64,000 nucleotides of DNA from Natroniella sulfidigena (lineage in GTDB: Bacteria; Bacillota; Halanaerobiia; Halobacteroidales; Halobacteroidaceae). Position numbers and translations under genes: made by a program. The stretch covers positions 1 through 64,000 of the forward strand of contig NZ_JALKBY010000001.1 of NCBI RefSeq assembly GCF_023223645.1. Direction: 5' to 3'. The notes under the pieces are model-generated. The model was not told the DNA's origin and made no database searches. It saw nothing but the letters and a program-made list of their open reading frames with translations. This document shows, piece after piece, positions 16,199 to 60,646 of the stretch. How positions within the stretch are numbered: the stretch's first letter is position 1; every line of letters begins with the position of its first letter.

Positions 16199-17377
16199 GT
16201 GAATCAAGATTATCACAAGATGATGAGTAAAATGTCGGGTAGTATCTCTAGGGTAGAAGATCTGACGGCAGATGAAATTGCCTATCGAAAAGAGATTGTT
16301 AACTTTACTGATCGTGATTTAGAATTATTAGAGGAGATGAAGGGTTTATTTCATGAGATTGTTGATCAAGTAGTAGAAGAATTTTATGATCATATTTATA
16401 GTTTTGGCCCGTTACAGGAGATTATTGATCAACATAGCACCGTAGAAAGATTGAGTAAAACCCAAAAACAATATTTTTTAGAGTTGGTTGATGGAGTTGA
16501 TGGAGGTTATGATGTAAACTATTTTAAAGAAAGATTTAAAATAGGCAAGGTACATGATAGGATCAATTTAGGGCCCAAGTACTATATTGGTGGGTATGCT
16601 ACTTATTACAACTTAACGATCCCTAAAATAATTGATTACTTTCAAGAAGAACCTGCTAAGATTTCAGAAGCAGTAATGGCTTTTTTGCGGATTACTAACT
16701 TAGATATGCAAGTAGCAATGGAGACGTATATTGCTGCTTTTATGGAGTTAGGAACAACAATCGATACTTTAGAGGGAGCAAGTACTAACGTAACGAATGT
16801 CTCTGAAGATTTGGCTTACTCTAGTGATGAGTTAAAAGAAGCTTCTGACCAGTTAACGAATAATGTGATTGAAATTTCGGAACGGAGTCAAGAACAGGCA
16901 ATCAATGCTCAAGAGGCAACAGAAGAGATTAAGAACTTAGCTGAGATGTCAGAAAATACATCGGAAAAGATTGAAGAAGCAATAAAGACGATTGAAAAGA
17001 TAGCTAGTCAAACAAATTTATTGGCTTTAAATGCTTCTATTGAGGCTGCTCGAGCAGGAGAACATGGTCGTGGTTTTGCAGTTGTAGCACAGGAAATTAA
17101 GAACTTAGCAGAAGATTCTACAGAAGCTGTAGACCGAATCGGGGCAATGGTACAAGAGATTCAAGAAACTACAGTCAGTAGTACAGAAAAAACAGTAGGT
17201 CTAATTGAGAATATATCAGATGCTTTAGATGATAATGCTGCTGCTACTGAAGAGGCAAGTGCTTTTACAGAAGAGCAAGGGGCGACTATTCATGAATTGG
17301 CTGAATCGGCTAATAAATTGTCTGAAACTTCAAACCAGATGCAAGAGTTAGTTCAAAAATTAAAAGCTAAGCTGTGA
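16199..17377 (+). CDS. Globin-coupled methyl-accepting chemotaxis protein (HemAT-like)
   Basis: 392 residues with no membrane segment. Residues about 25-185 form a protoglobin haem domain; [18 protein letters not shown] contains the proximal His (119) in the usual V-H-x-x-I-x-L setting. Residues 200-392 are a methyl-accepting signalling coiled coil with the hairpin tip [18 protein letters not shown], which contacts CheA/CheW. HemAT proteins sense oxygen for aerotaxis; in an anaerobe the expected response is avoidance. It starts with GTG 16199 behind AAGGGAGGG. It stands alone, with no che genes nearby. Confidence 0.92.
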
Positions 17378-18464: not shown

Positions 18465-18493
18465 TTGACAACGTTAGCAAATGTTTGTATAAT
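18465..18493 (+). promoter_or_regulatory. Consensus sigma-A promoter of the first peptide ABC operon
   Basis: TTGACA 18465-18470, 17-base spacer, TATAAT 18488-18493: an exact consensus. Transcription would begin near 18500, leaving a leader of about 280 bases. Confidence 0.85.
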
Positions 18494-18776
18494 TGAACTA
18501 AATATCATAAAATTATCACATGAATATCAAACAAATTTCAACTGGAAATCGATAAGTTTAAATTTAATAAAACGTATTCTGAACAGTATATGTTTTAGTT
18601 TTTTGCGTTGTGTACTATTTTTATTGGGCTTAATTAATACATAAGTTCAATAACATAAAAAATAGAACTTAATTAAGTAACTTAGGAGGTGGGGCCAAAG
18701 GAGTGAGCAGGCGATAATATTTTTAATTTTCAAAATGTTTTAAATTATAAGTATTGGAGGAGGAGAGGATTAAAAA
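18494..18776 (+). other. Long 5' leader of the peptide ABC operon
   Basis: AT-rich and without a convincing ORF. TAAGTTCAATA...AATAGAACTTA (about 18651-18672) can form a stem. AGGAGGTGGGGCCAAAGGAG (18684-18703) looks like a ribosome site followed by a five-codon GTG frame. No known riboswitch class was recognised. The real ribosome site GGAGGAGGAGAGG lies just before ATG 18777. Confidence 0.4.
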
Positions 18777-20435
18777 ATGGTTAAGAAGAGAAATATTGTA
18801 GCTGTCTTGTTGGTATTAGTTTTAGGGCTAATAGTAGTTGGTTGTGGTGAAGATGAAGCTGATGTGTCAGTGGAGGGATTGACTCAAGTCCCGGAAGTTA
18901 CTATGTATACAACCACTGCTGAATATGACCCAGTAAGATATGAAGCTGCTTTTATGGTAGCGGAAAATTGGGAAGAGTTAGGAGTAGAGGTGAATGTTCG
19001 TCCACTAGAGTTTAATTCATTGATTGAAAGAGTCTTTGATGCTGAAGAGAAGGATTTTAATGCCTTTATTTTAGGCTGGTCAGGAAGAATTGAGCGATTA
19101 GATCCTGATATGTTCCTGTACTCTAACTTCCATAGTTCCCAGGACATGCCTGGAGGAAATAATGCCTATGGTTATTTCAGCGAAGAGTATGATCAGTTAG
19201 CAGAAGCTCAACGGGAAGAGATGGAGATTGAAGAAAGACAAAAGATAGTTCATGAATTACAAGATATGTTGGCTGAGGATATTCCGAAGATTGCACTTTA
19301 TTATAGAGATGAATATCAAGCGTACAATCATGAAAGATTTGACAACTTTACTGTGATGCCAGGGGAAGGAATTTATAATGAATGGACTCCAGTAGAGATT
19401 GAGCCATTGACTGACGATACTGTCCTTGAGATAGCTTCAACACAAGATTTGGATACTTTAAATCCAATGACGGCTCAAACTGTATGGGAGTGGAAATTAC
19501 TTAGATTAGTTTATGATAAGTTAGTAAGATTAAGTCCTGATGTAGAACCTACTCCATCAGCTGCGGAAGATTGGGAGATTGTTGATGATGTGACTGTAGA
19601 TGTTACATTAAGAGATGGAATGGATTTTCATGATGGAGAAGCAGTAACTGTAGATGATGTTAAATTTACCTTTGATTATATGTTAGAATGGGGTGTACCT
19701 TATTTTGATACCTTCTTAAATCCTGTAGATAGTGTGGAGGTAGTAGCTGATAATGTAGTTAGATTCAATTTAGTTGAACCTTATGCACCATTCATTACAA
19801 ATACGTTGGCCCAAATACCTATTTTACCAGAGCATATCTGGTCAGATGTTGTAGATGGTGAAGAGATAACTCATCCAGATGAATGGGACAACCCAGAGCC
19901 TATCGGTAGTGGACCATTCAAGTTTGAGTACTGGAGAAGAGGAGAAGAGATTAAGTTAGCAGCGAATGAAGACCACTTTACTCCACCGAAGATTGATGGT
20001 CTACTTCAGGTATTATATGGTCATGCTGAAGGGGTCTTAGGAGCTTTAGAACAAGGGGACGCTGATATGAATGCTTGGAGATTTGAGCCACTTCATATTG
20101 AACAAGTAAGAGAATTAGATCATTTGACATTAACTGAAGCTCCTGATATTGGTTATTATTATACAGGATTCAATTTAAGAGAGGCACCATTTGATAATCA
20201 TGACTTTAGAAAAGCGATGGCTCATACTGTCGATTATGATACTATAATTGATGCTTTAATTCATGGTTATGGACAAGCAGGTGGAGCTGGAGCAGTACTT
20301 TCTCCTGCTAATGAATTCTGGGCCAACCCTGATATGGCTAGCTATGAATTTGATTTAGAAAGAGCTAGAGAGATCTTAGAAGAAGCAGGATATACTTGGG
20401 ATTCAACTGGCAGATTATATCTACCAGAAGAATAA
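18777..20435 (+). CDS. Peptide-type ABC substrate-binding lipoprotein with circularly permuted domain order
   Basis: 552 residues. Signal peptide and lipobox (LIVVGCGE, Cys 23) show an exported lipoprotein. It belongs to solute-binding family 5 (DppA/OppA), but the order of parts is exchanged. Residues about 38-205 match the usual C-terminal part: EVTMYTTTAEY, ELGVEVNVRPLEFNSLIER and LDPDMFLYSNFHSS correspond to residues about 380-540 of the normal paralogue at 59006 (DPDNFLYNNFHSS). Residues about 213-552 match the normal N-terminal and middle part (LEIASTQDLDTLNP, DWEIVDD, FHDGEAVTVDDVKFTFDYML, GSGPFKFEYW, YYTGFNLREAPFDNHDFRKA) and end at LEEAGYTWDSTGRLYLPEE, exactly where residue 38 would continue. 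First gene of an A-B-C-D-F operon. Confidence 0.9.
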   Translation: MVKKRNIVAVLLVLVLGLIVVGCGEDEADVSVEGLTQVPEVTMYTTTAEYDPVRYEAAFMVAENWEELGVEVNVRPLEFNSLIERVFDAEEKDFNAFILGWSGRIERLDPDMFLYSNFHSSQDMPGGNNAYGYFSEEYDQLAEAQREEMEIEERQKIVHELQDMLAEDIPKIALYYRDEYQAYNHERFDNFTVMPGEGIYNEWTPVEIEPLTDDTVLEIASTQDLDTLNPMTAQTVWEWKLLRLVYDKLVRLSPDVEPTPSAAEDWEIVDDVTVDVTLRDGMDFHDGEAVTVDDVKFTFDYMLEWGVPYFDTFLNPVDSVEVVADNVVRFNLVEPYAPFITNTLAQIPILPEHIWSDVVDGEEITHPDEWDNPEPIGSGPFKFEYWRRGEEIKLAANEDHFTPPKIDGLLQVLYGHAEGVLGALEQGDADMNAWRFEPLHIEQVRELDHLTLTEAPDIGYYYTGFNLREAPFDNHDFRKAMAHTVDYDTIIDALIHGYGQAGGAGAVLSPANEFWANPDMASYEFDLERAREILEEAGYTWDSTGRLYLPEE

Positions 20436-20449
20436 ATAATTACAACTAA

Positions 20450-20490
20450 CAGAATAGTTAGGAATAGCCCTAACTATTCTGTCTTTCTTT
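20450..20490 (+). terminator. Stem-loop between binding-protein and permease genes
   Basis: ACAGAATAGTTAGG (20450-20463) pairs with CCTAACTATTCTGT (20470-20483), then CTTTCTTTG. Probably a partial terminator or 3'-end stabiliser giving more binding protein than permease. Confidence 0.75.
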
Positions 20491-20530: not shown

Positions 20531-21502
20531 ATGATTAAGATGGTTTTGAAAAGATTAGGGCAGACTATTTTGAGTTTAGTAGTAGTAGCAACTATTATAT
20601 TTTTTATGTTTAGATTGATGCCTGGAGATCCAACAGCAGCAGTAGTAGATCCTTCTATTAGTACTGAAGCTAGAGAAGCAATGATCCAGCGGTTAGGACT
20701 TGATCAGCCGTTATATCAACAGTATTTTTCTTTTTTATCTGATGCTGTCAGAGGGGATTTAGGACGTTCATTTTATTATAGAAGACCGGTAATGGAAGTA
20801 ATAGGAGATAAAGTAATCAATACTTTGATGTTAATGTTATCTGCTATGCTTATAGCTTATGTAATTGGAATTTTGGTAGGTGCTTATTTGGCTTGGAAGC
20901 GGGGAAGCAAGAAAGAAGCAACTTTGATTTCAATAGCATTGACCTTTAGGTCTGCACCTACATTTTGGGTAGGAATGTTATTTATTATGTTCTTTTCTTT
21001 TAGATTAGGTTGGTTCCCACACTCAGGAATGAGAAGTTCTGGTTATGAAGCAGCTAATACATTTGAGGTCTTTTTCTCATTAGATTTTTTACGCCATCTA
21101 TTTTTACCGGCGGTAGTGGCAGGACTTTACTTTTTAGCAACTCCATTATTAATGATGAGAAATACGATGCTGGAAGTGTTGGGTGAAGATTTTATAGAAA
21201 TGTGTCATGCTAAAGGGTTAAAAGAGAAGGTTATTTTGTATCGTCATGCTGCACGGAATGCTTTATTGCCTGTGGTAACAACTGGTGCTTTATTTTTAGG
21301 ACAAGCGATAGGTGGACAGGTATTAATTGAGTATGTGTTTGGTTGGCCTGGTTTGGGTACTGAAATTATTCAAGCAGCTCAAAGGCATGATTATCCGTTG
21401 GCCCAAGCAAGCTTTTTATTAATAGCGTTAATGGTAATGATAATGAACTTTTTGGCTGATTTACTTTATAGCTATTTAGATCCAAGAATAACTTATAAGT
21501 AA
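20531..21502 (+). CDS. Peptide-type ABC transporter permease (DppB-like)
   Basis: 323 residues, six membrane segments. The N-terminal LMPGDPTAAVVDPSIS, the GDLGRSFYYRRPVMEVI segment and the cytoplasmic loop EMCHAKGLKEKVILYRHAARNALLPV (EAA motif) are typical of DppB/OppB. The C-terminal LLYSYLDPRITYK is the family ending. It forms the transmembrane channel with the next gene product. Start ATG 20531 behind TGGAGGTG; the next gene follows within 20 bases. Confidence 0.93.
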   Translation: MIKMVLKRLGQTILSLVVVATIIFFMFRLMPGDPTAAVVDPSISTEAREAMIQRLGLDQPLYQQYFSFLSDAVRGDLGRSFYYRRPVMEVIGDKVINTLMLMLSAMLIAYVIGILVGAYLAWKRGSKKEATLISIALTFRSAPTFWVGMLFIMFFSFRLGWFPHSGMRSSGYEAANTFEVFFSLDFLRHLFLPAVVAGLYFLATPLLMMRNTMLEVLGEDFIEMCHAKGLKEKVILYRHAARNALLPVVTTGALFLGQAIGGQVLIEYVFGWPGLGTEIIQAAQRHDYPLAQASFLLIALMVMIMNFLADLLYSYLDPRITYK

Positions 21503-21518
21503 GAAGGTGGTGAATATA

Positions 21519-22451
21519 ATGACTGAACCTGTAGTAGAAAATCTAGAAGAAGTTAAAGTAGAGAGAAAGGATGTCAAGGGGGGATCGCTTGCAAGTACTT
21601 TTAAACTCTTTAAGGATGTACTAAAAAGAGATAAAATGGCTATGTTTGGGGTTGTAGTATTAATCTTTTTTATTTTAGTAGCTGCGTTTGCTCCGCTGAT
21701 TGCTCCTTATGACCCCTATGAAATGAACCGCACAGAGGATGGAGCGATTGCAAGGTTAGAACCTCCTTCTGCTCAACATTGGTTTGGAACTACTAATTTA
21801 GGGAGAGATGTATTCAGCCAAGTTGTAATGGGCTCTAGGATTGCTTTATTAGTAGGGTTTTTGGCTGCCTTTTTGGTAACTTTTATTGGTACTAATGTAG
21901 GGTTGATTGCTGGATATTATGGAGGAGCGATTGATAATTTTTTAATGCGAGTTGTAGATATTATGTATGCTTTACCATTTATACCTTTTGTGATTATATT
22001 AGTAGCACTGTTAGATCCAAGTATCTGGAACATTATTTTAGCTATCTCTTTGCTTACTTGGCGGACTGTAGCACGGATTATTCGTTCACAGGTCTTATCA
22101 GTGGCTAATAGACCATTCATTAAGGCTGCTAAAGTAGCAGGAGCATCTGATTTAAGGATTATGTATAAGTATATTGCTCCTAATATTATTCCGATTGCTT
22201 TATTAGAAATGGCCTTTATGGTTAGTTGGGCTATTTTGGCTGAGGCCAGTGTCAGCTTTATTGGTTTTGGAGATCCAGATGTAATTAGCTGGGGCCAAAT
22301 TTTACATACAAGCTTTTTGACTGGAGCTATTAGGACTGCCTGGTGGTGGGTTATTCCTCCAGGAGTAGCTATTGTATTAGTCTTAGTGGCAATCTTCTTT
22401 ACTGCTAGAGCCTTTGAAGAAATTGTAAATCCAAGATTGAGGAGGCGATAA
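21519..22451 (+). CDS. Peptide-type ABC transporter permease (DppC-like)
   Basis: 310 residues with a charged cytoplasmic N-terminus, then six membrane segments. FAPLIAPYDPYEMN, HWFGTTNLGRDVFSQVVMGSR and the EAA loop KAAKVAGASDLRIMYKYIAPN are typical DppC/OppC marks; the end is FEEIVNPRLRRR. ATG 21519 has AAGAAGGTGG about 8 bases upstream; two GTG codons at 21507 and 21510 lie within that site. Partner of the permease at 20531. Confidence 0.93.
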   Translation: MTEPVVENLEEVKVERKDVKGGSLASTFKLFKDVLKRDKMAMFGVVVLIFFILVAAFAPLIAPYDPYEMNRTEDGAIARLEPPSAQHWFGTTNLGRDVFSQVVMGSRIALLVGFLAAFLVTFIGTNVGLIAGYYGGAIDNFLMRVVDIMYALPFIPFVIILVALLDPSIWNIILAISLLTWRTVARIIRSQVLSVANRPFIKAAKVAGASDLRIMYKYIAPNIIPIALLEMAFMVSWAILAEASVSFIGFGDPDVISWGQILHTSFLTGAIRTAWWWVIPPGVAIVLVLVAIFFTARAFEEIVNPRLRRR

Positions 22452-22454
22452 TTG

Positions 22455-23498
22455 ATGCCACTGTTAGAAGTAAATAATTTAGGAATAGATTATATTACAG
22501 AAAAAGGAACTCTAGAAGCTGTTAGAGATGTCTCCTTCACTTTAGAAAAAGGAAAAAATTTAGGGTTAGTAGGTGAGAGTGGTTGTGGGAAGACTACTGT
22601 TGCTAAGTCTTTGATGAAATTATTACCCAGTAATGGAGTTATTTCAGAAGGAGAGATTATTTTTAAAGGGCAAGATGTAGTAGAGATGACAAAGGAGGAA
22701 GTTAGACAGATTCGCTGGAATGATATCTCAATGATTGCTCAAAGTGCAATGAATGCAATGGATCCAGTTTATAAAATAAAGGATCAAATTATAGAAGCGA
22801 TTAAGACCCATCAACCACAAGTAAGCAAGACAGAGGCAATAGAGCGAGCAGCTAAATTATTTGAGTTAGTAGGGTTGGAGCGCAAAAGGCTTGAGAGTTA
22901 TCCACATCAATTAAGTGGTGGAATGAAGCAGAGAACAATTATTGCGATGGCTTTAGCTTTGAGTCCTGCCTTAGTAATTGCAGATGAACCGACTACAGCT
23001 TTGGATGTAGTTGTACAAGATCGGATCTTGCATCAGATTATAAAGCTGCAGCAAGAAATAAATAGTTCAATGGTCTTTATTACCCATGATATTTCTGTAG
23101 TAGCAGAAACCTGTGATCAGATTATTGTAATGTATGGGGGAAGAATTGCTGAGATAGGAAGTACTAGAGACTTTTTTAAGGATACTCATCATCCTTATGG
23201 GTTAGGTTTACAAAATGCATTTCCAAGCATTAAAGAGATAGGAGAGAGGCTGATTTCAATACCAGGTTCCCCTCCTAATTTAATTAATCCTAAGCCAGGT
23301 TGTCGATTTGCTCCAAGATGTCCTTTTGTAGAAGATATTTGTTATGCAGAAATGCCTGATTTAATAGAAATTAAACCAGGTCATTATTCTGCGTGCCACT
23401 TTACTGATAAAATAGATCAATTTAGAAAAGAAGCAAAGTTGAGAGAAACTTGGGAGCGGGTGAAGGAGCGCCAAATAAAAAAACAGTTAACAAGATAG
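22455..23498 (+). CDS. Peptide-type ABC transporter ATP-binding protein (DppD-like)
   Basis: 347 residues. Walker A GESGCGKTTVAKSLM, Q-loop region, signature LSGGMKQRTIIAMALALSP, Walker [14 protein letters not shown] and the switch His (FITHDISVV) are intact. The C-terminal oligopeptide domain has the cysteine cluster PGCRFAPRCPFVEDICY, common in this subfamily, where some members bind an iron-sulfur cluster. ATG 22455 follows GAGGAGGCG. The product pairs with the next gene's ATPase on the inner face of the membrane. Confidence 0.94.
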   Translation: MPLLEVNNLGIDYITEKGTLEAVRDVSFTLEKGKNLGLVGESGCGKTTVAKSLMKLLPSNGVISEGEIIFKGQDVVEMTKEEVRQIRWNDISMIAQSAMNAMDPVYKIKDQIIEAIKTHQPQVSKTEAIERAAKLFELVGLERKRLESYPHQLSGGMKQRTIIAMALALSPALVIADEPTTALDVVVQDRILHQIIKLQQEINSSMVFITHDISVVAETCDQIIVMYGGRIAEIGSTRDFFKDTHHPYGLGLQNAFPSIKEIGERLISIPGSPPNLINPKPGCRFAPRCPFVEDICYAEMPDLIEIKPGHYSACHFTDKIDQFRKEAKLRETWERVKERQIKKQLTR

Positions 23499-23523
23499 TT
23501 TAGATAACTAAGGAGGTGAGAAT

Positions 23524-24501
23524 ATGGCAAATAATATGGTAAAGGTAGAAGGGCTAAAGAAATATTTTGCAGTAGGAGCGGGTGTAACAAAGATATTCAA
23601 GCCGCAAGAATATGTTAAAGCGATCGATAATATTTCCTTAAACATTAAAGAAGGTGAAATTCTTGGTTTAGCTGGAGAGAGTGGCTCAGGAAAGACTACT
23701 ATTGGAGAGATACTATTGAGGTTACAGGAGCCAACTGCAGGCAAGATAGTTCTTGATGGAAATGACTTTACTAAATTAACCAGAAAAGATGAGAAGAAGT
23801 TCAGAAGAGAAGTACAGATGATCTTTCAAGACCCTTATGAAACTTTAAATCCGCGATTTACTATTTATCAGACTGTAGCTGAACCACTATTAATTCATAA
23901 ATTAGGTGATGAAGATGAAATTTATGATAGAGTAGTAGCTGCATTAGAAACAGCTGAGTTGAAGCCAGCGGAAAAGTATTTAAATCAATATCCTCATGAA
24001 TTAAGTGGAGGACAAAGACAGAGAGTAGCTATTGCTAGAGGAATTGTATTAGAGCCTAAATTCTTAGTAGCTGATGAGCCTGTATCTATGTTGGATGTTT
24101 CTATTCGAGCGGGGATTTTAAATTTATTGGGAGATTTGCGGGATGAACTTGGTCTGACTATGGTCTATATCTCTCATGATCTATCTACAATTAAGTATTT
24201 ATGTGATCGGATAGCAATTTTATATCTAGGAAAGATCATGGAGATTGGCCCTACTGATGAAGTAATAATGAATCCAAGACATCCTTATACCAAGACCTTA
24301 TTATCAGCAGTGCCTGTTCCTGATCCTGATGAGAATAGAAAGAGAATTGATCTTGATGATGAAGTAGCTAATCAGATTGATATTCCACAGGGATGTCGAT
24401 TTAAACCACGGTGTTCTATGGCTAAGAGTGAGTGTACAGAATGTAATCATGAAATGAAAGAAGTAGGAAAAGATCATTATTCGGCATGTATTTTAAATTA
24501 A
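23524..24501 (+). CDS. Peptide-type ABC transporter ATP-binding protein (DppF-like)
   Basis: 325 residues. Walker A GESGSGKTTIGEILLR, FQDPYETLNPRFTI, signature LSGGQRQRVAIARGI, Walker B LVADEPVSMLDVSI, and YISHDLSTI are present. The C-terminal domain has the cysteines of PQGCRFKPRCSMAKSEC, plus CNHEMKEVG before a final Cys. The substrate cannot be told from the ATPase. ATG 23524 follows AAGGAGGTG. Last gene of the operon, followed by a strong terminator. Confidence 0.94.
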   Translation: MANNMVKVEGLKKYFAVGAGVTKIFKPQEYVKAIDNISLNIKEGEILGLAGESGSGKTTIGEILLRLQEPTAGKIVLDGNDFTKLTRKDEKKFRREVQMIFQDPYETLNPRFTIYQTVAEPLLIHKLGDEDEIYDRVVAALETAELKPAEKYLNQYPHELSGGQRQRVAIARGIVLEPKFLVADEPVSMLDVSIRAGILNLLGDLRDELGLTMVYISHDLSTIKYLCDRIAILYLGKIMEIGPTDEVIMNPRHPYTKTLLSAVPVPDPDENRKRIDLDDEVANQIDIPQGCRFKPRCSMAKSECTECNHEMKEVGKDHYSACILN

Positions 24502-24505
24502 TTTT

Positions 24506-24542
24506 AAAAGGTTTCTTAGCTTAAGCTAAGAAACCTTTTTTT
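24506..24542 (+). terminator. Terminator of the first peptide ABC operon
   Basis: AAAAGGTTTCTTAGC (24506-24520) pairs perfectly with GCTAAGAAACCTTTT (24525-24539), loop TTAA, with a T-run. Confidence 0.92.
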
Positions 24543-59005: not shown

Positions 59006-60646
59006 ATGTTTAAAAAATCAGTTGGAATTGGTTTGTTATTGGTTTTATTAGCAGCTTTAGTTGTTGGCTGTGGAGGAGTAGAAGAAGCGACAGAAGAGGC
59101 AGCAGAGGTTACAGAAGAGGATAGGTATGGTGGTACTTATTATGCTAGGTTGGGGTCAGATGCACCAACTTTAGATCCAGCACATTCTACGGATAGTACT
59201 TCATCAAGGGTGATTGAGAATATTTTTGACAGATTAGTAGAATTTGATGGAGATGCAGAGGTTGTTCCTGGTTTAGCTGAAGATTGGGAAATAAGTGAAG
59301 ATGGATTGACATGGACTTTTTATTTGCGAGAAGGTGTTAAGTTCCACAATGGTAGTGAAGTAACTGCTGATGATGTAGTCTTTACTTTCACTAGAATTTT
59401 GGATCCAGCAGTTCAATCAGACCGAGCTAATTATTACGATCGAGTTGAAGGTGCAAGTGAATTTCGAGATGGAGAAATTGATGAAGTACCTGGTTTAGTT
59501 GCTGTGGATGATTATACAGTACAATTTCAGTTAGAAGAATCATATACTCCACTATTATCTATTTTGGCAGTAGATAGTGCTTCAATTGTACCACAAGATG
59601 CAGTGGAGAAGTATGGTAATGATGACTTTGCTAATAATCCTGTTGGTTCTGGACCATTTGAATTTGTAGAATGGCAAAGTGACCATCAAATTGTCCTAGA
59701 AAGAAATGATGATTATTATGTAGATGGACTTCCTTATTTAGATGAGGTTGTCTTTAGAGTTATTTCTGAGTCTTCTTCAGCATTTGCTGAGTATGAACAG
59801 GGCAATATTTATGAACAGATCGATGGTGACCTTCCAGATGGACAGATGGATCGTATTTTAAATTCAGGAGAATTTGATGAAGAATTAGTTGTTGAACCTC
59901 GTTTAGGAACATATTATTTTGGGTTCAATGTCCAAGAGGAACCATTTGATAATCTTAAGGTAAGAAAAGCACTTAATTATGCTGTTGATCGAGATACTAT
60001 AGTTAATGTTATTAGAGCTGGAATTGAAGAGCCTGCTACAGGAATCCTGCCTCCTGGAATGGACGGTTATGATCCAGAATTAGAAGGATATTATGAACAA
60101 GATACTGAAAAAGCTCAGGAGTTATTAGCTGAAGCAGGGTATCCGGATGGGTTACCTGGCACTTATGAGCTTGCTTATAATACAGATGATGCAAATCAGA
60201 GTGTAGCAGAGGCTTTACAAGCTAACTTACGAACTATTGATGTTGATGTTGAATTAGTAAATGTGGAGTGGGGAACTTATTTAGAAAAGATTGATGAAGG
60301 AGATACTGAAATGTTTAGGTTAGGTTGGGTATCAACTTATCCTGATCCAGATAACTTCTTATATAATAACTTCCACTCTAGTAATATTGGAGCGACTAAT
60401 GGATCTTGGTATGATGATCCAGAAACAGATGAGATGTTAGAAAAAGGTCGTGGCATGGCACCAGGTTCTGAACGTGCAGAATTATATTCAGAAATTAATG
60501 AAACATTGATAAAAGATGCACCGTGGATGCCAATTTATTATTATTCTAATACTGTATTGACAAAGCCGTTTGTAAATGACTTCGAGGTAACTGCTCGAGG
60601 AGAAGAACCATTAACAGATGTTTGGTTACATCCAAATTATCAATAA
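59006..60646 (+). CDS. Peptide-type ABC substrate-binding lipoprotein (DppA-like)
   Basis: 546 residues. Lipoprotein signal with VVGCGG (Cys near 22), an acidic Glu/Ala-rich linker, then solute-binding family 5 in normal order: RLGSDAPTLDPAHSTDSTSS, DRLVEFDGDAEVVPGLAEDW, FHNGSEVTADDVVFTFTRIL, GSGPFEFVEW, YYFGFNVQEEPFDNLKVRKA, and the C-terminal VDVELVNVEWGTYLEKID with DPDNFLYNNFHSS. It collects peptides or related solutes in the periplasm and hands them to the BCDF complex. ATG 59006 behind GAGGAGG. It serves as the within-window reference for the permuted protein at 18777. Confidence 0.95.
   Translation: MFKKSVGIGLLLVLLAALVVGCGGVEEATEEAAEVTEEDRYGGTYYARLGSDAPTLDPAHSTDSTSSRVIENIFDRLVEFDGDAEVVPGLAEDWEISEDGLTWTFYLREGVKFHNGSEVTADDVVFTFTRILDPAVQSDRANYYDRVEGASEFRDGEIDEVPGLVAVDDYTVQFQLEESYTPLLSILAVDSASIVPQDAVEKYGNDDFANNPVGSGPFEFVEWQSDHQIVLERNDDYYVDGLPYLDEVVFRVISESSSAFAEYEQGNIYEQIDGDLPDGQMDRILNSGEFDEELVVEPRLGTYYFGFNVQEEPFDNLKVRKALNYAVDRDTIVNVIRAGIEEPATGILPPGMDGYDPELEGYYEQDTEKAQELLAEAGYPDGLPGTYELAYNTDDANQSVAEALQANLRTIDVDVELVNVEWGTYLEKIDEGDTEMFRLGWVSTYPDPDNFLYNNFHSSNIGATNGSWYDDPETDEMLEKGRGMAPGSERAELYSEINETLIKDAPWMPIYYYSNTVLTKPFVNDFEVTARGEEPLTDVWLHPNYQ

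Follow-up and report, generated by a model that had tools for sequence, protein, structure and literature searches.

A naturally circularly permuted OppA/DppA-type binding protein in Natroniella sulfidigena and its widespread permuted subfamily

Introduction

Circular permutation is seldom seen among natural binding proteins, and a gene at positions 18777-20435 of Natroniella sulfidigena contig NZ_JALKBY010000001.1 is a candidate case. It lies in the 64,000-nucleotide stretch that we analyzed (the window) and appears to encode the binding protein of a peptide-type ABC importer with its two ends exchanged. Is this order real, is the gene functional, and is the arrangement confined to this genome?

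Results

A permuted binding protein at the head of an importer operon

The only Pfam family matched by the 18777-20435 product is PF00496 (SBP_bac_5), with 238.1 bits against a gathering score of 32.4; nothing in the match corresponds to the cluster B sugar-binding class of TpMglB-2-like cluster Bc proteins. The match falls into two stretches in swapped order: bases 18900-19145 align to profile positions 289-366 (5.5e-9) and bases 19545-20438 to positions 1-291 (4.3e-61), so that 289-366 precedes 1-291 instead of following it as in the normal linear order of the family. AppA (PDB 1xoc) aligns in the same swapped manner, with query residues 244-543 corresponding to chain residues 51-347 and query residues 47-201 to chain residues 366-512. 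Both halves are thus homologous to one full-length protein, and the native termini are joined. A paralogue at 59006-60646 carries PF00496 positions 1-367 in one piece and in normal order (match 59258-60391). The initial annotation, made from the letters alone, had proposed just this contrast between a permuted gene and a standard paralogue, and both parts of the proposal are borne out. It had also placed DPDMFLYSNFHSS at about residues 109-121, which is exact; the counterpart DPDNFLYNNFHSS lies near the end of the paralogue. The gene and its operon comprise the following features.

18465..18493, + strand: perfect sigma-A-type promoter, TTGACA-17-TATAAT (12/12 consensus match), then a leader of about 280 nt
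18777..20435, + strand: permuted SBP_bac_5 lipoprotein gene of type A, 552 aa; ATG at 18777, stop at 20433-20435
18777..18845, + strand: signal peptide and lipobox (VLVLGLIVVGC) with lipidated Cys23, the sole cysteine
18888..19388, + strand: native C-terminal segment, now N-terminal, aa ~38-204 (PF00496 289-366; AppA 366-512; canonical HMM 393-531)
19386..19418, + strand: fused native C- and N-termini, aa ~204-214, TPVEIEPLTDD (gap between both HMM blocks; homologue alignment)
19419..20411, + strand: native N-terminal segment, now C-terminal, aa ~215-545, up to the EEAGY loop that holds the cut (PF00496 1-291; AppA 51-347)
20449..20482, + strand: terminator-like hairpin between the SBP and permease genes (14-pair stem, T-rich tail)
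20531..21502, + strand: permease, DppB/OppB type (PF00528 and PF19300, BPD_transp_1_N)
21507..22451, + strand: permease, DppC/OppC type (PF00528 and PF12911, OppC_N)
22452..23498, + strand: ATPase, DppD/OppD type (PF00005 and oligo_HPY PF08352)
23524..24501, + strand: ATPase, DppF/OppF type (PF00005 and oligo_HPY PF08352)
24506..24539, + strand: terminator-like hairpin at the operon end (15-pair stem, T tail)

The gene therefore encodes a naturally permuted binding protein of cluster C, the OppA/DppA type, in which the native C-terminal third stands ahead of the N-terminal two thirds. AlphaFold2, supplied with 32 permuted homologues, gave a confident fold for this order (pLDDT 85.8, pTM 0.83), with the signal peptide alone disordered. 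In a Foldseek search of the PDB, the top 50 matches to the model are all normal cluster C proteins (1dpe, 1xoc, 4oet, 5u4o and others), which places the predicted fold in that class. The alignments cover ~350 of about 500 residues, the native N-terminal part, at a TM-score of about 0.5, as far as a program that depends on sequence order can be expected to align a permuted chain. Neither Foldseek nor a sequence search of PDB chains found a solved structure with the permuted order. Structure prediction and the scoring of SBP_bac_5 in two pieces, each of which is recognized independently as PF00496, were checks that the initial annotation had suggested, and both came out in its favor.

Export and transport functions appear intact around the permuted frame. 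A lipobox (VVGC) precedes the permuted start, as had been claimed, and since Cys23 in it is the only cysteine, no inner signal-peptide remnant is left in the linker. The consensus promoter lies 284 bases upstream of the gene; in the leader (18465-18776) we found no Rfam family, only sub-threshold chance matches. Downstream, 20531-24501 encodes two BPD_transp_1 permeases and two oligo_HPY ATPases, the gene set of an Opp/Dpp/Nik-type importer, and a hairpin between the binding protein and permease genes is a common arrangement in importer operons. On this context the window protein is most likely the substrate-binding lipoprotein of an Opp/Dpp-type importer. All NCBIfam equivalog models (Opp4A, DppA, NikA and others) score far below their cut-offs for it.

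Overall, we consider it about 90% probable that 18777-20435 encodes a functional permuted cluster C lipoprotein that feeds the downstream Opp/Dpp-type importer, that it belongs to a permuted clade, here called type A, and that this genome probably received it horizontally. In normal cluster C members the native N- and C-termini adjoin each other in lobe I. In the permutant a linker of some 10 residues connects them, and new termini open in a surface loop past the '(E)AGY' helix of lobe III. The fold and binding cleft would be kept, and the lipid anchor would exit from lobe III instead of lobe I. Type A has spread between phyla and into haloarchaea. A tandem duplication followed by trimming of the outer halves is a plausible origin; among the surveyed homologues, we found no double-length intermediate.

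Independent homologues against artefact and foreign-domain explanations

Could the unusual order have been produced by the assembly, through collapse of two adjacent binding protein genes into one seemingly permuted frame? The source assembly consists of 32 contigs and genes of this kind are multi-copy, but complete circular plasmids and unrelated assemblies carry homologues of the same order and cut, and the window gene has an intact frame, a single lipobox and smooth GC. These independent homologues refute a collapse, to which we assign practically no weight. Just as negligible is the idea that an unrelated domain, the N-terminal ~200 residues, was joined to a C-terminally truncated binding protein. 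The C-terminal piece by itself is indeed an incomplete PF00496 match (1-291 of 368); however, the N-terminal piece has its own matches to PF00496 289-366 and AppA 366-512 and, in all relatives, agrees with the canonical HMM. The trees of the two halves also agree: each recovers the permuted clade, indicating that one protein was permuted rather than unrelated parts swapped, and together with the matches this refutes a foreign origin. Chance is ruled out by a control in which the same domain-order pipeline called none of 57 normal SBP ORFs permuted.

Type A is a widespread permuted subfamily

Complete plasmids and chromosomes from Alphaproteobacteria, haloarchaea and Actinomycetota, and other genomes of the window's phylum, carry homologues that align collinearly with 90-95% of the window protein at 31-51% identity. 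In all of these the cut lies in the same loop and a signal peptide comes first, and most stand ahead of an Opp/Dpp-like permease/ATPase operon. In 61 plasmid records a tblastn search found a single collinear place that covers >=80% of the protein; Nitratireductor sp. OM-1 heads the list with 43.6% over 95%, followed by Halalkalicoccus jeotgali, Natrononativus, Haladaptatus and Maritalea; complete plasmids of Halobaculum, Ketogulonicigenium and others carry homologues as well. One degenerate pattern from the fusion region retrieved a further view of the group, 39 genome-contig loci from Nitriliruptorales, haloarchaea, Rhizobiales, Rhodobacterales and Betaproteobacteria. The Nitriliruptorales (Actinomycetota) relatives reach 50-53% over the fusion region, and those from other families of the window's phylum up to 51% over the full length. 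Against a canonical HMM built from 27 normal-order SBPs, 58 type A ORFs (including the window's, a few partial ones and L141, which was later reassigned to another clade) show block ~394-530 followed by block ~55-382, which puts the type A cut at canonical position ~382. With native order restored, type A forms one clade (support 100/99), and it remains one in each half-tree. The survey of homologues for segment order and the phylogeny of both halves, two further checks named in the initial annotation, thus bear out its reading.

Type A is accordingly a widespread and ancient permuted subfamily common to bacteria and haloarchaea and not peculiar to the N. sulfidigena genome. Closest to the window gene are relatives in G017 and G063, genomes from a different family of the phylum; those of Nitriliruptorales and Nitratireductor come next. 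None of the 12 other genomes searched in the window's order has a collinear homologue, and within the same class we found one distant homologue (genome G284). From this distribution and the tree, the window gene was probably acquired by horizontal transfer, which would also agree with the occurrence of type A in both bacteria and archaea, often on plasmids. The GC of the window operon is not deviant; its flanks show no clear empty insertion site, and synteny of the upstream BacA gene is not conserved in relatives.

The permuted relatives are under purifying selection: dN/dS is about 0.05-0.18 in close pairs of permuted genes, all of them relatives, as the window gene lacks a homologue close enough for the comparison. 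Together with the collinear homologues on complete replicons, the export signals and the intact operon, this supports the initial annotation's view of a working design rather than a broken gene. Of 82 permuted loci, 57 have a detectable full set of four transporter subunits, and the remainder are mostly short or truncated. By simple pattern rules, the signal before the permuted start varies by host: members from the window's phylum have a lipobox, those from haloarchaea a twin-arginine motif together with a lipobox, and most proteobacterial permutants an SPase I-like AxA signal. Most alphaproteobacterial type A members are therefore probably soluble, which argues against tethering as a general reason for the permutation. 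One type A relative, L151:4399-5859 (G218:C27), matches only to about halfway through its ORF, a probable frameshift or decaying copy.

Permutation has arisen repeatedly in the family

To find permutants irrespective of the cut, we searched 398 genomes of the window's phylum with an HMM of the fused native termini and verified the hits by segment order. Permutants of any type occur in about 42 of the 398 sampled genomes, some of which hold several types; this figure is a lower bound, because the detection HMM was trained on these permutants. Type A accounts for 8 genomes. Type B, found in at least 23 (L115-L122, L124-L140, L224; for example L152:5690-7399, - strand), is cut at HMM position ~243 between NPNYW and (V/L)DEI, so that its proteins start with '(V/L)DEI..PI' and end with '..GEYVRL.KNPNYW'. 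Clade P (L141, L225-L231; 8 genomes) has the same cut as the window gene and includes the permutant L141:1708-3663 (G199:C1:2116245-2116751). The cut is shared again by clade Q (L232-L240, L242; about 9 genomes), whose proteins end directly past the LLREAGY helix, and by R, a single lipoprotein permutant (L241:1-1545, G377:C8) that lies near normal-order proteins, with 41% identity to L183. In a clade P relative, L223 (G380:C1:904711-905208), an in-frame TGA in the fusion region marks either a pseudogene or a sequencing error.

A cut past the '(L)L.EAGY' helix is thus common to A, P, Q and R, but trees place A, P and Q apart. Clade P nests beside the normal-order, OppA-like L178/L180/L182, and the AU test rejects forcing A together with the P member L141 (p 1.85e-7), A with Q (p 1.9e-4) and P with Q (p 1.3e-75), with Q and R borderline (p 0.050). 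Sequence comparison thus assigns P and Q an ancestry independent of A despite the same cut. Since the cut is shared by clades of separate ancestry, three or more independent openings of the EAGY loop are the more likely account; the alternative would be several reversions to normal order. We therefore think it probable that permutation of SBP_bac_5 proteins is recurrent, with three or more openings of the EAGY loop (A, P, Q and perhaps R), at least one of a second site (B), and the lobe III loop acting as a permissive or selected hot spot.

Type B is likewise one clade with native order restored and in the half-trees, and whether it and type A go back to separate events is less clear. A single permuted ancestor later re-cut is conceivable, if somewhat doubtful in our view: the two are sisters in some trees (92/84; support 76) and forcing them together is not rejected (AU p 0.397), yet in another tree the normal-order L002/L012 stand between them, and a re-cut would in any case need a second permutation. 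Two separate events seem somewhat more likely.

Discussion

What sets the window protein apart from DppA, OppA, AppA and NikA is its order. It shares with these cluster C proteins the sequence segments, the predicted fold, the lipoprotein signal and the operon of two permeases and two oligo_HPY ATPases, but it has the native C-terminal third first, its termini in the lobe III loop and the native termini fused. Types B, P, Q and R share the family, the fused native termini, a leading signal peptide and, where tested, nearby permease genes; B is cut elsewhere (HMM ~243), whereas P and Q share the window's cut and differ in tree position. In a literature search, mainly of open-access papers, the one published natural permuted SBP that we found is TpMglB-2 (Tp0684) of Treponema pallidum, and we found none for the OppA/DppA class. 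TpMglB-2 is an intact, monomeric sugar-binding protein, proposed as a subclass ('cluster Bc / type Ic'), for whose permutation the authors suggested tethering as the reason (PMC4990184). Both it and the window protein are natural circular permutants of ABC-type binding proteins, but TpMglB-2 belongs to cluster B and has another cut, whereas the window protein belongs to cluster C. As far as we searched, the widespread type A subfamily is undescribed.

The recurrence of permutation in the SBP_bac_5 family is the more surprising result, the window gene itself being an ordinary working member of its subfamily. If a lobe III hot spot exists, it would shift the membrane anchor and the order of lobe folding or secretion while leaving the fold unchanged. 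Repeated cuts at one site, set beside many normal-order relatives, are replicate natural experiments on what fixes permutations, and could address factors such as folding, export, tether position and docking to the permease. Biosensor design could also draw on them as existing permuted scaffolds whose new termini are natural. The class has been hidden because Pfam-style annotation displays permutants as two fragments.

Might the permuted protein have left transport altogether to serve as a sensor or chemoreceptor partner? TpMglB-2 has been discussed as a chemoreceptor (PMC4990184), and two genes upstream, the product of 16199-17377 ends in what looks by eye like a methyl-accepting-type signaling region. 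We nevertheless regard such a role as very improbable: the gene heads an operon that encodes the two permeases and the two ATPases, the hairpin after it is of the kind common in importer operons, relatives keep the transporter genes, and no extracytoplasmic domain was recognized in the 16199 protein. We thus retain the importer function. In related loci, the neighbors include M28 peptidase (30 loci), hydantoinase B (18) and Asp/Glu/hydantoin racemase (15), as well as M20 peptidase, amidohydrolase, hydantoinase A, creatininase and RidA; these counts rest on clusters with Pfam-checked representatives, because first-pass calls in GC-rich loci include antisense ORFs. Such surroundings suggest that type A proteins bind small cyclic or carbamoylated amino-acid-like compounds (hydantoin-like or cyclic amides) rather than free oligopeptides. 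The suggestion carries least weight for the window copy, as no catabolic gene lies beside it; its operon flanks, a BacA-type gene upstream and a sulfate-permease-type gene downstream, are uninformative on the ligand.

Within the protein, G103, R104, R107, D109 and P110 (GRxxRxDP) are invariant across 32 type A proteins, where the normal paralogue has GWVSTYPDPDNF. In DppA the amino group of the ligand is contacted by this region; by analogy, the invariant arginines may point to an acidic ligand, which we offer as a lead only.

Among type A operons of Alphaproteobacteria and haloarchaea (L060-L106), positions beside hydantoinase/oxoprolinase, Asp/Glu/hydantoin racemase, creatininase or M20/M28 peptidase genes recur repeatedly.
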